In this document: piece after piece, positions 41,846 through 47,102 of the stretch
How positions within the stretch are numbered: position 1 is the first letter of the stretch
Layout of the letters: every line of letters starts with the position of its first letter
DNA from: Sulfuricurvum sp.
Lineage (GTDB): Bacteria > Campylobacterota > Campylobacteria > Campylobacterales > Sulfurimonadaceae
NCBI RefSeq assembly: GCF_030691015.1
Contig: NZ_JAUYFF010000002.1
Location: 1 to 64,000, forward strand
Length of the DNA stretch: 64,000 nt
Direction of reading: 5' to 3'
The notes under the pieces: model-generated
Databases searched by the model: none
What the model was told of the DNA's origin: nothing
Seen by the model: only the letters and a program-made list of their open reading frames with translations
Translations under genes and position numbers: made by a program

Positions 41846-42382
41846 TTATTGCACCATTCTCGCAATTTCCAGAAGGCTGTCAGGGAATGAAAAACGGTTG
41901 TTTCGAAGTGCTTTTGCATTGATTAGAATAATAGGAGTTCTCTCCATCCGAATCGAAAGTAACAAACCGTCGTCGGCTAGTTTATCCGCATCGTAGAGAG
42001 CGGTTATTGCACCTGTTGAGCCGACGGCATTATGGACTTTACTGAGCTGTGACAAGCTCGCTTTGAGAGCATAGATAAAGTGATACGACGTTGTTCCGTC
42101 AAGTTTATCAAACGGAAGTGCCGTTGCATTGATCGGACGACCGTTAAGACGGCCGTTAAATTTAGACATCAATATTTTGATACATGAGGCGGCGGTATCA
42201 TCATCTCCTCTGTCGTAGGCGATCAAAATTTTGATAGGTGTTTTGACGTTAGAGGAGAGGATATTTTTTTCCAATACGGCGATTTTAGGTAGCAAAGAGA
42301 GCTGAGTTTCCAACAAAAATGGATCATAGGTGGCACTCCACCCTGTGGTCGCAATAAAAAGACTTATTAGGAGACGTTTCAA
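41846..42382 (-). CDS. YfiR-like (DUF4154-type) secreted protein
   Basis: Signal peptide; C-terminal LLLSIRMERTPIILINAKALRNNRFSFPDSLLEIARMV resembles YfiR-family endings; ATGA overlap with TonB receptor gene. Confidence 0.55.
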   Translation of the reverse strand: MKRLLISLFIATTGWSATYDPFLLETQLSLLPKIAVLEKNILSSNVKTPIKILIAYDRGDDDTAASCIKILMSKFNGRLNGRPINATALPFDKLDGTTSYHFIYALKASLSQLSKVHNAVGSTGAITALYDADKLADDGLLLSIRMERTPIILINAKALRNNRFSFPDSLLEIARMVQ

Positions 42383-44442
42383 AATGTCCCCCTAAAAGTA
42401 AGTAGGAAGGTACGACCTGTTGAAGGGTAGTCCCCATCATAGGTGTTTGTTGGGCTAGGGTAAAACTCATTTTTATCGAAAAGATTTTTAGCCGTTAGCT
42501 GAACTTCACTCTGGAATTGTGGAATTTTATATCCAATAGAGGTATCGACGATACCGATGGCTTTCATATCGCTACGCTGATCAGTGGTTGCTCTAGGTGT
42601 TGCACTTTGCCACCGTCCGGCAAGAGAGGCGTACCAGTTGGTATCGAGGGTATGCGTCATAAATCCTCGTGCTGTGTTGCTTGGAGCATTGGGCAATGTA
42701 GCACCTTGAGCGTCTTCAGCCCAGATATGGGTAAATGCTCCGTAAAAAGAGGTCTCATCATAACGTTTGCGCCATTCGGCTTCAAATCCACGAATTTTGC
42801 TTTTTGAACCGTTAATATACTCGTATCGTAAGAATGTACTATTGTATTGAGGATAAATTTGATCTTCATTGTTGAGTTGGAAAAAGTTTACCGATAAAGT
42901 GTGATCCGTTTCAAATCGATGAATCAACTGGGTTTCGTAGGCTACTACGGTTTCGGGAATGAGGTTGGGGTTTCCCCATCGGGCTCTGTTATTGAGGGTA
43001 TACATCTCTTGCCAAGAGGGATTTCTATGGGCACGGGAGATTGAAAACTTGATCAGATTGTCGGGATTAAACGTATATAAGAGTGCGGCACGAGGATCTA
43101 CTTGGGCGGATAAATTGTTTCGTTTATCTATCGTCAAGGAAGCATAGCCGCTTAGTGAGGAGGATAAAACCCGCTCATACGTCAGGTAGGTTGTTAGATT
43201 GTTAATCGATCCATTCGGACTGAAAAAAGGGAGTATGGTTGAATAATCGGTCATTTCCGTTCCGCTGTCACGGTCGGTTGTTATCGTTTTTTCAGAGTTA
43301 ACACTGCTCCAAGATTTACCGATTCCAAATGTTGCTTCTCCTCCTAATACGGTGCCGCGGAGGGTGTTGTTAACTCGGTAGGTCCGTATAATCGCTTCGT
43401 GTTCACCGTAAAAACCGTCCAGATAGGTGACAATACTCGTAGGCGGAGTCAGCGAAGGGAGCCGTAAGCCTGCGGGTGCAAGAAGCTGATGGCTGATAAA
43501 ACTGTCTTGTACGATAGATGCTTGGAATGTTCCGGTAAAATCTTCCAGATTGTAGTGGGTACCGGCACGAAGCTGCCATTGATCGATATTGTAGTGATCC
43601 TCTCCAGAAGCAAGGGCATAGTTAATGCCTCCACCTGAACCGTGGCGGTAGGAGGAGATACGGCCGTCGGAAAAAAAGTCCCCTTTAGCGAGAGAAAATG
43701 AAAACATGGTGGCATCGGTAGAAGAGGGTGCGTTGCCGGATCGAGAGAGAGGTGCATTGGCTACACCTAAAAGATTATTTGAAAGGCCGTCTTGACCATA
43801 AGGGAGTGAAAGATTGTCGTGTACGGTGTAGAGATCTGCGGCAAAAGAAAAGTCATTGTCTCTCATCGCATACGAAGCACCTGCTTTGTAGGTATTGTGC
43901 GTACCGGCAGAGGTGAACCAGCGGCCATTTTTTTCTGTATCGGGTTCTTTTTTATAGGTTGTTACAATAATCGATCCGGCATACCCCCAGTGTCCGTCAC
44001 TGTAGCTTCCTGGGCCTCTTACAATTTCGATTCGCTTGATCATATCGATCGGCATACTCAGATACGCCGTATAACCGTCGAAGAATAGATCGTTAACCTC
44101 GACACCGTCAAGGATGAGCTTGCTTTGTCCGTAGGCGACAGGATTTGAACCTCGGATGACCGGATTAAACAAGGAAAGGTTATCGCTGGCCATATTGACG
44201 CCGGCAGCGAGGGAGAGAGCCTCTTTAAGTGAAGATGCACCGGCACGGGAAAGTTCTTCGCCCTCAAATACCGTCATTATGTAGGGGAGGTAGTCAATGT
44301 TTGAGCGTTGGGTTTTTGCTGTTTGAGCAATAGTGTTCATCTCATCGGCGAGAGTATTAAAAAGGTTTTGATCCGATTTTGTTTCGGTCGCTAAAAGCGA
44401 AAGCGGGAGCAGTAACAGAGCACAAGAGAAGCGGGTTTTCAT
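42379..44442 (-). CDS. TonB-dependent outer-membrane receptor
   Basis: Signal peptide; plug domain (SSLKEALSLAAGVN...NPVIRGSNPVAYGQSKLILDGVEVND...IKRIEIVRGPGS); C-terminal beta-barrel ending in F. Confidence 0.93.
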   Translation of the reverse strand: MKTRFSCALLLLPLSLLATETKSDQNLFNTLADEMNTIAQTAKTQRSNIDYLPYIMTVFEGEELSRAGASSLKEALSLAAGVNMASDNLSLFNPVIRGSNPVAYGQSKLILDGVEVNDLFFDGYTAYLSMPIDMIKRIEIVRGPGSYSDGHWGYAGSIIVTTYKKEPDTEKNGRWFTSAGTHNTYKAGASYAMRDNDFSFAADLYTVHDNLSLPYGQDGLSNNLLGVANAPLSRSGNAPSSTDATMFSFSLAKGDFFSDGRISSYRHGSGGGINYALASGEDHYNIDQWQLRAGTHYNLEDFTGTFQASIVQDSFISHQLLAPAGLRLPSLTPPTSIVTYLDGFYGEHEAIIRTYRVNNTLRGTVLGGEATFGIGKSWSSVNSEKTITTDRDSGTEMTDYSTILPFFSPNGSINNLTTYLTYERVLSSSLSGYASLTIDKRNNLSAQVDPRAALLYTFNPDNLIKFSISRAHRNPSWQEMYTLNNRARWGNPNLIPETVVAYETQLIHRFETDHTLSVNFFQLNNEDQIYPQYNSTFLRYEYINGSKSKIRGFEAEWRKRYDETSFYGAFTHIWAEDAQGATLPNAPSNTARGFMTHTLDTNWYASLAGRWQSATPRATTDQRSDMKAIGIVDTSIGYKIPQFQSEVQLTAKNLFDKNEFYPSPTNTYDGDYPSTGRTFLLTFRGTF

Positions 44443-45005
44443 CAGTATTCTTTCCTAGAGACGGCATAATCTCGTATTGTTAAAATGACGGGGTATCGAT
44501 CTGCGCCGATCATGTGTTGGAGCGGCCCGATTGGAACATACGGAAGCGCGGAGTGTTGTAGCAGACGGAGAAAGCTGGGTTCAACGGCACCGACCCATTG
44601 CATAATATTGTAATCGGAAGCGATTCGATAGAGCTCTTTTTGCATAATTTTCATAATCTTGATGGTATTTTTGAAAGTTCGGTGTGCAGCTGCAACCGTA
44701 ATACGTGAAATTTCAGCTGTTATCTGGTCACTTTGCAGTTTATTGGTATCAATGATCATACTGTTGAGTGTCGGTAATCCGAAGGTAGTATTGGGGAGAA
44801 CAAGGCGGCAGGAAGCTATTAAGTTCTCTTTCTCCCACACACCCAATAGAAGAGAATGCTCATCATATCGGTCATATTCAATCTTATCAGACTCATCATG
44901 AGGTTCAAAAAAATGGAATTCTTCAACGAAAATCGCATAACGCTGCTGCAAAATTGCATTTTTTTCAGCTACTGTCGATGCGACTTGGCATTTCACCGAT
45001 TTCAT
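44442..45005 (-). CDS. N-acyl amino acid synthase / LuxI-like fold acyltransferase family
   Basis: QQRYAIFVEEFHFFEPHDESDKIEYDRYDEHSLLLGVWEKENLIASCRLVLPN...LPTLNSM: R..vFveE..f....D..E.D.yD pattern of FeeM/exosortase-associated acyltransferases. Confidence 0.65.
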   Translation of the reverse strand: MKSVKCQVASTVAEKNAILQQRYAIFVEEFHFFEPHDESDKIEYDRYDEHSLLLGVWEKENLIASCRLVLPNTTFGLPTLNSMIIDTNKLQSDQITAEISRITVAAAHRTFKNTIKIMKIMQKELYRIASDYNIMQWVGAVEPSFLRLLQHSALPYVPIGPLQHMIGADRYPVILTIRDYAVSRKEY

Positions 45006-45182
45006 CCTTTGAGTTAATATTTAAATATAGTACTAAAACCGTTAATAACAGCTGAATAAAGATAGATTAAATAAAGTTGATTGTATATTATGCAGTTAAA
45101 ATTCTTATTTCACTTTAATATAGTTACAGTGCAAAGATTGCATGATTTTTAGAATAATCTTTTATCATTAGAAGGCTTAAAA

Positions 45183-47102
45183 ATGTATCGTTCACGAAGT
45201 CGTCTTTCTTATAAAGTTGTCGGTTCTTTAATACTTGTTTTTTTACTGATGTTTATTACGTTCGGTATTCTTATTAGTATTACTTTTGAAAATACGAAAT
45301 TGGCTTCGGAAAAACAAAAAGCTGATTTACTCTTGCAAACGATTGAAAAATCACTACAGATGGCCCTTTATCTGAAATTTAATGAGCAAATCGCTGAAAA
45401 GGTTTCTCCTGTTGTATCGGTTCCCGGTGTTATAGAACTTTCGGTTCGTGATAATAATGGCAAATTGTTGTATCTGTACACTACCGAGAAAGAGAAGCCG
45501 CTAAACATACACAATGCGATTTCAGCTACGCATAAAATACAAGAGCCGACATCAGGTCATTTTATGGGTTCCATTACGTTGTATTACAATGATTTGGCGT
45601 ATGATGAAACACGTCAGGCTATGTATAATGTTTTTTACGGGGTAGGGATAAGTATCGCACTGATTTTCTTTTTTGCCGTGTGGTGGGTGCGCTATCTTCT
45701 CTCCCCATTAAGTCAAATTGCGCAAAAAGTTCGTGACTATCGACCGGGTGACCAGATGGTACTAGAAGAAGAAGGTAGTGTAGAGATTGAACAAATTGTG
45801 ACTGCCTTTAATGCGATGCAGGGGACAACGTACCGTTATTTGAGACAAATGGAAGCGATGAATATGTCTCTTGAGGGGGCAGTGAAAGAAAAAACGCTTG
45901 AGCTGGAAAATCAATATTACAGTGATCGATTGACCGGTTTGCCGAATCGGTTTAGACTGCAGGAAAAATTGCTTCAAGGAGAGATAACGGCTCTGGCAAT
46001 TGTCAACGTGGATGATTTTAAAGAGATCAATGATTTTTTCGGAATTGAGATCGGGGATGAAATGCTGATACAAATCGGTGCCTGGCTCAATGTACTATCG
46101 GGCTCATGTTATCGTTTGGGGAGTGACGAATTTGTATTGACTTTTTCAGATACCCTTAGTTCGACTGAACTGGAACATCGATTGATAACTCTTATGAAAC
46201 TTTTAGATGAGAAGACGTTTACCATCAAAGATGAGAGTTTAAATATTAGAGTGACAATCGGTGTCGCTTTAGGTACCGAAAATGTATTAACGCGTGCCGA
46301 TATCGCATTACACTATGCCAAAGAGAATAAAAAGCAGATTGCATTTTACAATCAAGAAGAGAGAGTTGAAGAACAATACCGCTCTAATTTAACGATGGCT
46401 TCGGATGTTCGAAGAGCCCTTTTTGAACATCGTATTCTGTGCCATTATCAGCCGATTGTTGACTTCAAAACAGGTGAAATCCACAAATATGAAACATTGG
46501 TTCGGATGATTGACGACGCCGGTAATATGATACCGCCGATGGAGTTTTTACCTATCGCAAAACAAACCAAACTTTATCCGCAAATCACATTAGAGGTACT
46601 TTATCAAGCGTGCACCCTTTTCGCTACGCGCAGTGAGGAGTTCTCTATTAACCTCTCCGACAGTGATATACGTAATTCCCATACGGTGAGTGAGATTATC
46701 AGAACGATTACCGAAACCGGTACCGCACCTCGAATCGTCTTTGAGATTTTAGAATCGGAGGGGATCGAAAGTTATGAGGAAGTGACACAATTTATTACCA
46801 AAGTCAAAGCATTGGGGGCAAAAATTGCGATTGATGATTTCGGGACGGGTTATTCGAATTTTGAAAACATACTTAAATTGAGTGTCGATTACATCAAAAT
46901 AGACGGTTCGTTGATTCGGGAAATCAGCAGTAATCCGCGTCACCATATTATTGTCGAGACGATTATCGATTTTGCACGAAAAATCGGTGCAAAGACGATT
47001 GCGGAATTTGTTTCGGATGAAGAGATTTACAACACCCTCAAAAACTTGGATGTTGATTATTCACAAGGATATTTTACCGGTAAACCGATATCGTTATCGT
47101 AA
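45183..47102 (+). CDS. membrane GGDEF-EAL protein with HAMP-like linker; GGDEF and EAL signatures variant
   Basis: Two TM helices; SDRLTGLPNRF, CYRLGSDEFVLTF (GSDEF), KYETLVRM (ETL), IDDFGTGYSNF. Confidence 0.9.
   Translation: MYRSRSRLSYKVVGSLILVFLLMFITFGILISITFENTKLASEKQKADLLLQTIEKSLQMALYLKFNEQIAEKVSPVVSVPGVIELSVRDNNGKLLYLYTTEKEKPLNIHNAISATHKIQEPTSGHFMGSITLYYNDLAYDETRQAMYNVFYGVGISIALIFFFAVWWVRYLLSPLSQIAQKVRDYRPGDQMVLEEEGSVEIEQIVTAFNAMQGTTYRYLRQMEAMNMSLEGAVKEKTLELENQYYSDRLTGLPNRFRLQEKLLQGEITALAIVNVDDFKEINDFFGIEIGDEMLIQIGAWLNVLSGSCYRLGSDEFVLTFSDTLSSTELEHRLITLMKLLDEKTFTIKDESLNIRVTIGVALGTENVLTRADIALHYAKENKKQIAFYNQEERVEEQYRSNLTMASDVRRALFEHRILCHYQPIVDFKTGEIHKYETLVRMIDDAGNMIPPMEFLPIAKQTKLYPQITLEVLYQACTLFATRSEEFSINLSDSDIRNSHTVSEIIRTITETGTAPRIVFEILESEGIESYEEVTQFITKVKALGAKIAIDDFGTGYSNFENILKLSVDYIKIDGSLIREISSNPRHHIIVETIIDFARKIGAKTIAEFVSDEEIYNTLKNLDVDYSQGYFTGKPISLS

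Follow-up and report, generated by a model that had tools for sequence, protein, structure and literature searches.

Gene content and layout of the locus

The window analysed here is a stretch of 64,000 nucleotides (positions 1 to 64,000 of contig NZ_JAUYFF010000002.1, assembly GCF_030691015.1) from a member of the genus Sulfuricurvum (Campylobacterota, Sulfurimonadaceae), and its closest named locus is that of S. kujiense UBA12443 (L034; receptor 91% identical). The window contains a unit of four genes, which encode a putative acyltransferase (ACYL), a TonB-dependent receptor (TBDR), a YfiR-like protein (YFIR) and a membrane-bound GGDEF-EAL protein (GGEAL). ACYL (187 amino acids, 44442..45005) is the first gene of a minus-strand operon and is followed by TBDR (687 amino acids, 42379..44442) and YFIR (178 amino acids, TTG start, 41846..42382); according to the open reading frame (ORF) coordinates, ACYL and TBDR overlap by 1 bp and TBDR and YFIR by 4 bp. 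GGEAL (639 amino acids, 45183..47102) lies divergently on the plus strand and is separated from ACYL by an intergenic region of 177 bp (45006..45182), which by its position presumably holds the promoters. No Rfam RNA element was found near the four-gene unit, including this region. The four ORFs, with three overlapping minus-strand genes and a divergent GGDEF-EAL gene, are exactly as claimed in a preliminary description of the window. The divergent layout, however, is confined to Sulfuricurvum and is not a general feature, since elsewhere the four genes are co-directional in one operon.

Domains and predicted folds of the four proteins

At the sequence level, YFIR is only weakly related to the Pfam family DUF4154 (0.005; 17.3 bits, under the cut-off of 24.9), a family matched by 10 of its 19 orthologues at E ≤ 0.1 (best 6e-6), and a sequence search of the PDB with a YFIR profile returned nothing useful. 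The predicted structure (predicted local distance difference test, pLDDT, 87), however, supports a YfiR fold: the nine best Foldseek matches in the PDB are all YfiR of P. aeruginosa, with E-values of 1.5e-6 to 3e-5 and TMt of 0.65-0.70 (4zhu/4yn9/4xjy). The translation starts with a signal-peptide-like N-terminus, as judged by eye, and YFIR is probably periplasmic.

TBDR matches both the Plug domain (5e-14; 53.1 bits, cut-off 23.9) and the receptor barrel (8e-25; 89.1 bits, cut-off 27), and no STN signalling domain was matched in the domain search. The closest NCBIfam receptor models are those of siderophore and B12 receptors, every one of which stays below its cut-off.

GGEAL consists of a transmembrane segment, a periplasmic sensor, a second transmembrane segment and HAMP (3e-4), GGDEF (2e-19) and EAL (5e-62) domains. 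The EAL domain has kept its catalytic residues (ExLxR, N490, E521, DDFGTGYS, K572, E608 and Q628). At the GG(D/E)EF signature, the window protein has GSDEF, several orthologues have GGDEF and distant ones SGDEF. The sensor region (residues about 31-155, approximately 45273..45647 on the plus strand) matches CHASE8 weakly (E 0.1); profile alignments using hhalign relate it to the sensors of YfiR-paired histidine kinases, namely that of a kinase encoded at another locus of the same genome (L053; 6e-13) and those of the kinases that stand in the place of ACYL in L105/L108 (1.4e-7). The second half of the periplasmic domain (45393-45602) is among the fastest-changing parts of GGEAL in most close pairs. 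Recombination was considered as a cause of this raised divergence, but most of it is amino-acid replacement, and recombination is not clear.

For ACYL, the profile searches against Autoind_synth and acyltransferase families that had been proposed in the preliminary description gave a mixed result: Acetyltransf_5 is matched over its Pfam cut-off (1e-10), whereas FeeM (6e-4; 20.2 bits, cut-off 27), Autoind_synth (2e-3; 18.4 bits, cut-off 24) and TIGR03694 (1e-19; 71 bits, cut-off 112) remain under theirs. The orthologues match the FeeM model in 13 of 19 cases (best 1.5e-6) and TIGR03694 in all 19 (best 6e-24). Its sequence places ACYL among the GNATs of the Acetyltransf_5/TIGR03694 type, and the curated cut-offs do not certify it for the FeeM, acyl-homoserine lactone (AHL) synthase and exosortase-acyltransferase families. 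The fold of FeeM and the AHL synthases is supported by the predicted structure (pLDDT 91), whose best PDB match is FeeM (2g0b; E 3e-9, template modelling score 0.69-0.71), followed by BjaI and then LasI. Structure prediction thereby settled the two family calls that were weak by sequence, those of YFIR and ACYL, and the protein assignments of the preliminary description, including the TonB-dependent receptor and the membrane GGDEF-EAL protein with a YfiN-like layout, all hold. Invariant residues among the 19 ACYL orthologues are R22, E43-x-D45-x-Y47-D48 and E98-x-S100-R101. ACYL has no signal peptide, and no relatives were found on plasmids. An exosortase was absent from 15 of 16 tested genomes and from the window genome (G000), and a role of ACYL as an exosortase-linked lipid enzyme was rejected because the window genome lacks this partner.

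Homologues of ACYL also occur outside the receptor-linked unit. At three places (L090/L184, L100 and L185), such a homologue lies directly downstream of a gene for an LCM-type (leucine-carboxyl) methyltransferase (L090:7957-9424, L100:8755-10283, L185:1501-3331), and a search at the level of the order, together with the query locus, met methyltransferases of this type only at those three places. This linkage hints that the product of some members of the ACYL family has a free carboxylate and may be, e.g., an N-acyl amino acid, and these gene pairs possibly form a pathway for N-acyl amino acid methyl esters; the product of the window enzyme is not shown by it. Longer homologues of about 252 amino acids are found in another gene cluster (L091:6792-7550, L096:8554-9315), which is alike in both genomes by gene sizes.

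Conservation of the four-gene unit

To follow the conservation of the unit, public genomes were scanned with a receptor alignment as the anchor, so that loci were not chosen by the presence of ACYL; co-occurrence was counted on six-frame segments. The preliminary description had connected the four genes by their adjacency and had regarded a lack of co-conservation as counting against a common function. The 45 orthologous receptor-anchored loci with full flanks include 35 in which all four genes are present; YfiR occurs in 44, GGDEF-EAL in 41 and a histidine kinase in 4; the order ACYL-TBDR-YFIR-GGEAL is found in 29 receptor-anchored loci. Complete modules, mostly in one operon, occupy 16 distinct gene contexts (59 loci, grouped by at least two of six flanking genes in common, with L097 counted via a decayed ACYL), and the conservation of the neighbourhood is far beyond chance. 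Of the two refuting outcomes named in the preliminary description, missing family support for the YfiR and acyltransferase assignments and missing co-conservation, neither came about. Co-conservation of the four genes extends over lineages of Sulfuricurvum, Sulfurimonas, Hydrogenimonas, Nitratiruptor and Arcobacter, and the ACYL loci of other genera show acyltransferase, receptor, YfiR and GGDEF-EAL genes as a single operon. Whole-genome searches found ACYL in 36 of the 151 genomes of the family and in 33 of the 397 genomes of the phylum. Ten outgroup receptors are accompanied by YfiR in all cases, by GGDEF-EAL in eight and by a kinase in two, and ACYL is found with none of them.

All orthologous receptor matches come from Campylobacterota or unplaced bacterial metagenome-assembled genomes (MAGs), with the exception of contigs labelled as Gammaproteobacteria and Archaeoglobaceae (L125, L127). 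The receptors of these contigs fall inside the Campylobacterota tree, and they are probably misbinned MAG contigs.

A recurrent set of receptor, YfiR-fold protein and sensor

The window genome has three DUF4154 loci, all of which sit with a TonB-dependent receptor and a membrane sensor enzyme. Besides the four-gene unit, these are a cluster of a receiver-GGDEF-EAL protein, YfiR, a CHASE8-HAMP-histidine kinase and a TonB receptor (L052:6299-12098, on contig C4) and a cluster of a TonB receptor, a histidine kinase and YfiR (L053:4994-9120, on contig C4); one kinase of this genome matches CHASE8 with 1.5e-5, which is below the cut-off. Because the three loci share this composition and the sensor of GGEAL is homologous to kinase sensors, the TonB receptor, the YfiR-fold protein and the YfiN-like sensor, whose output is exchangeable, are regarded as a recurrent set. 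It looks like the older core, which accepts other outputs such as histidine kinases. The proposal that a YfiR/YfiN-type pair has a TonB receptor as its outer-membrane partner has strong support, as the three loci of this genome combine it with different outputs.

Absence and exchange of the acyltransferase

On the receptor tree, the presence of ACYL changes 12 times, and at least 11 of these changes are forced by well-supported branches; TBDR, YFIR and the output mostly stay. The scattered absence of ACYL, together with an outgroup of receptors without it, suggests one association followed by many losses, a reading in which the root of the tree is not inferred. Broken remains of ACYL lie upstream of an intact receptor-YfiR-GGDEF-EAL set at two loci (G075:C2:158721-159064, L097; G053:C1:372163-372279, L098). 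Among Sulfuricurvum-type loci, L108 (4948-6933) encodes a histidine kinase of 486 amino acids exactly where L036 (8616-9236) has ACYL, and the DNA of these two loci is 90-95% identical in the flanks and 95% identical in the TBDR-YFIR segment.

In the comparison of the window with UBA12443, silent divergence is saturated in ACYL (pS 0.74) and in the first 45 receptor codons (0.70), with values of 0.34 in the receptor barrel and 0.36 in a flanking gene, and the drop in identity has sharp edges. The pair L122/L050 shows the same pattern, which is slight or absent in L131/L130 and L160/L119, two further pairs that are informative. In the window/UBA12443 and L122/L050 pairs, ACYL looks as if it had been replaced by diverged alleles. 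A strict co-swapping of ligand and receptor as 'pherotypes' was also considered and is not borne out, since ACYL alleles differ where receptor barrels do not.

Co-divergence of the four proteins

Partial correlations of pairwise divergence were calculated for 9 loci of Sulfuricurvum and 21 loci of a Sulfurimonas-like set. ACYL and TBDR are correlated in both (r 0.68, p 0.04 and r 0.49, p 0.004, respectively), and the correlation becomes slightly weaker after removal of the receptor N-terminus (0.66, p 0.056 and 0.43, p 0.006). Both sets also link YFIR with GGEAL and TBDR with GGEAL, and ACYL has no link to GGEAL or YFIR in either of them. Adjacency does not explain this pattern: in Sulfuricurvum, ACYL adjoins GGEAL and YFIR is far from it, so that linkage alone would predict the opposite correlations. 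The co-divergence data give moderate support to a link between ACYL and the receptor.

Proposed mechanism and alternative explanations

We propose that the four genes form a single signalling unit that spans the envelope, apparently a self-contained means by which a chemical outside the cell is made and perceived. Within the cytoplasm, ACYL would join an acyl group from acyl carrier protein or coenzyme A to an amino compound, thereby producing an N-acyl amino acid-like or AHL-like molecule, which would leave the cell and be bound by the TonB receptor. The loaded receptor may then alter periplasmic YFIR in place of the Pseudomonas lipoprotein YfiB, a role to which the recurrent pairing of such receptors with YfiR points. 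YFIR would act on the YfiN-like sensor of GGEAL, a step supported by its fold, the homology of the sensor and the co-divergence of both proteins. The perceived molecule would relieve the control of the GGDEF-EAL protein by YfiR and change cyclic di-GMP (c-di-GMP), probably via the intact EAL domain. ACYL would be an attached ligand source, which was repeatedly lost, leaving 'solo' receptors behind. The relay of receptor, YfiR and YfiN-like sensor alone is well supported and likely, and the whole chain, with ACYL as the ligand source of this relay, is judged to be evenly balanced between right and wrong. Surface-read quorum- or self-sensing, in which an N-acyl signal acts via TBDR and the YfiR-like protein on c-di-GMP metabolism, with exchangeable synthase alleles and 'solo' receptors, is a tentative extension that falls somewhat short of even chances.

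Several points speak against this mechanism. An exporter, a LuxR-type receptor and a known ligand are absent from the unit; in a third set, which comprises the more distant loci that remain, ACYL follows GGEAL more closely than TBDR; the correlations were obtained on 9 and 21 loci, and Mantel-type permutation tests are liberal for related sequences. Furthermore, ACYL of the window is 63% identical to that of UBA12443 at the amino acid level with receptor barrels about 91-92% identical, i.e., no receptor swap matches that of the enzyme, and the kinase in the place of ACYL in L108 could mean that ACYL is an output and not a ligand source. In an alternative that we regard as rather unlikely but as the strongest of the rivals, the relay would sense an outside compound that is not made by ACYL (a metal chelate, a vitamin or a foreign signal), and ACYL would be part of the response, making a surface-active N-acyl amide or a membrane aminolipid once the receptor is engaged. 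A kinase can take the place of ACYL next to a TBDR-YFIR pair with 95% identity, and a diverged ACYL allele can do so next to a little-changed receptor barrel, so that the receptor needs no one given ACYL; outgroup relays manage without it, and related enzymes are reported to make surfactants or lipids (e.g., PMC4897644 and PMC11631085). However, two sets of loci show the divergence of ACYL tracking the receptor instead of the output enzyme, and the receptor operon begins with ACYL, which is nearly always found with the receptor. The distance correlations favour ACYL as the ligand source, and the allele swaps and the gene replacement fit other readings, too.

Covariation of ACYL and TBDR would suit a ligand-receptor pair of any kind, including one in which the product of ACYL is an amphiphilic metallophore or a molecule for scavenging that TBDR imports with its cargo, so that YFIR and GGEAL would monitor nutrient status and not cell density. 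The siderophore and B12 receptors among the closest, below-cut-off models of TBDR would agree with this; however, a single acyltransferase makes a slender metallophore pathway, and no gene for siderophore synthesis or inner-membrane uptake was found in the unit across the 16 contexts, as judged by homology to the window. This explanation is improbable. Adjacency by chance or general genome order, without a common function, has nothing in its favour beyond the divergent placing of GGEAL in Sulfuricurvum; it was rejected on the basis of the 16 gene contexts and is next to impossible in view of the preserved gene order, the gene overlaps and the recurring TBDR-YFIR-sensor sets.

Signalling of the AHL type is mostly understood through LuxR receptors in the cytoplasm, and for YfiNR systems the outer-membrane input is either a lipoprotein or not known. 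If the proposed signalling unit is true, a TonB receptor feeding YfiR would give many YfiNR systems without YfiB the input that they lack, and the linked synthase would make the receptor ligand directly findable and open to study the chemical signalling of Campylobacterota at vents and in sulfidic habitats.

Comparison with known systems

The four-gene unit of sulfur-oxidising Campylobacterota is apparently undescribed: among open-licence papers, none was found that links YfiR or DUF4154 to a TonB receptor or describes an acyl-signal circuit of this kind in Campylobacterota, in agreement with the earlier statement that the combination is not known as a described pathway. ACYL shares its predicted fold with the N-acyl amino acid synthase FeeM (2g0b as best match), and all 19 orthologues match the model of the PEP-CTERM/exosortase-associated acyltransferases (TIGR03694), but it stays below both cut-offs, its genome lacks an exosortase and it is linked to a receptor relay. 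With LuxI-type AHL synthases, it shares the predicted fold and the R / D-x-Y-D / E-x-S-R pattern. LuxI proteins usually carry a Trp that is absent from ACYL; moreover, Autoind_synth is matched below cut-off, the unit has no LuxR partner, and the outer membrane would be the place of sensing. In signal transduction of the FecA/FecR type, too, a TonB receptor of the outer membrane signals inward, as proposed here; however, TBDR has no STN match and the unit contains no anti-sigma/sigma pair, and the carrier of the signal would be a soluble YfiR-like protein.

The closest parallel is YfiBNR of P. aeruginosa (DgcN-YfiR-YfiB), in which a YfiR-fold protein, periplasmic there and probably also here, accompanies an inner-membrane protein of the transmembrane-sensor-transmembrane-HAMP-GGDEF type, and the outer-membrane partner is encoded alongside. 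In that system the partner YfiB is a Pal-like lipoprotein, whereas the unit described here has a TonB receptor and no yfiB gene, carries an intact EAL domain, a GSDEF signature and an attached acyltransferase, and matches the DUF4154 and YfiN sequence models below their cut-offs. According to Malone et al. 2012 (PMC3375315), YfiR-YfiN cores are modular; they often lack YfiB, and their output is a GGDEF-EAL protein or a kinase. The main text of that paper does not mention TonB, and no acyltransferase is named where it summarises the modular systems. As in those systems, YfiR is combined here with a YfiN-type sensor and an exchanged output domain in the absence of YfiB; with its TonB receptor, the relay is an extension of the modular YfiNR systems that Malone et al. 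described.

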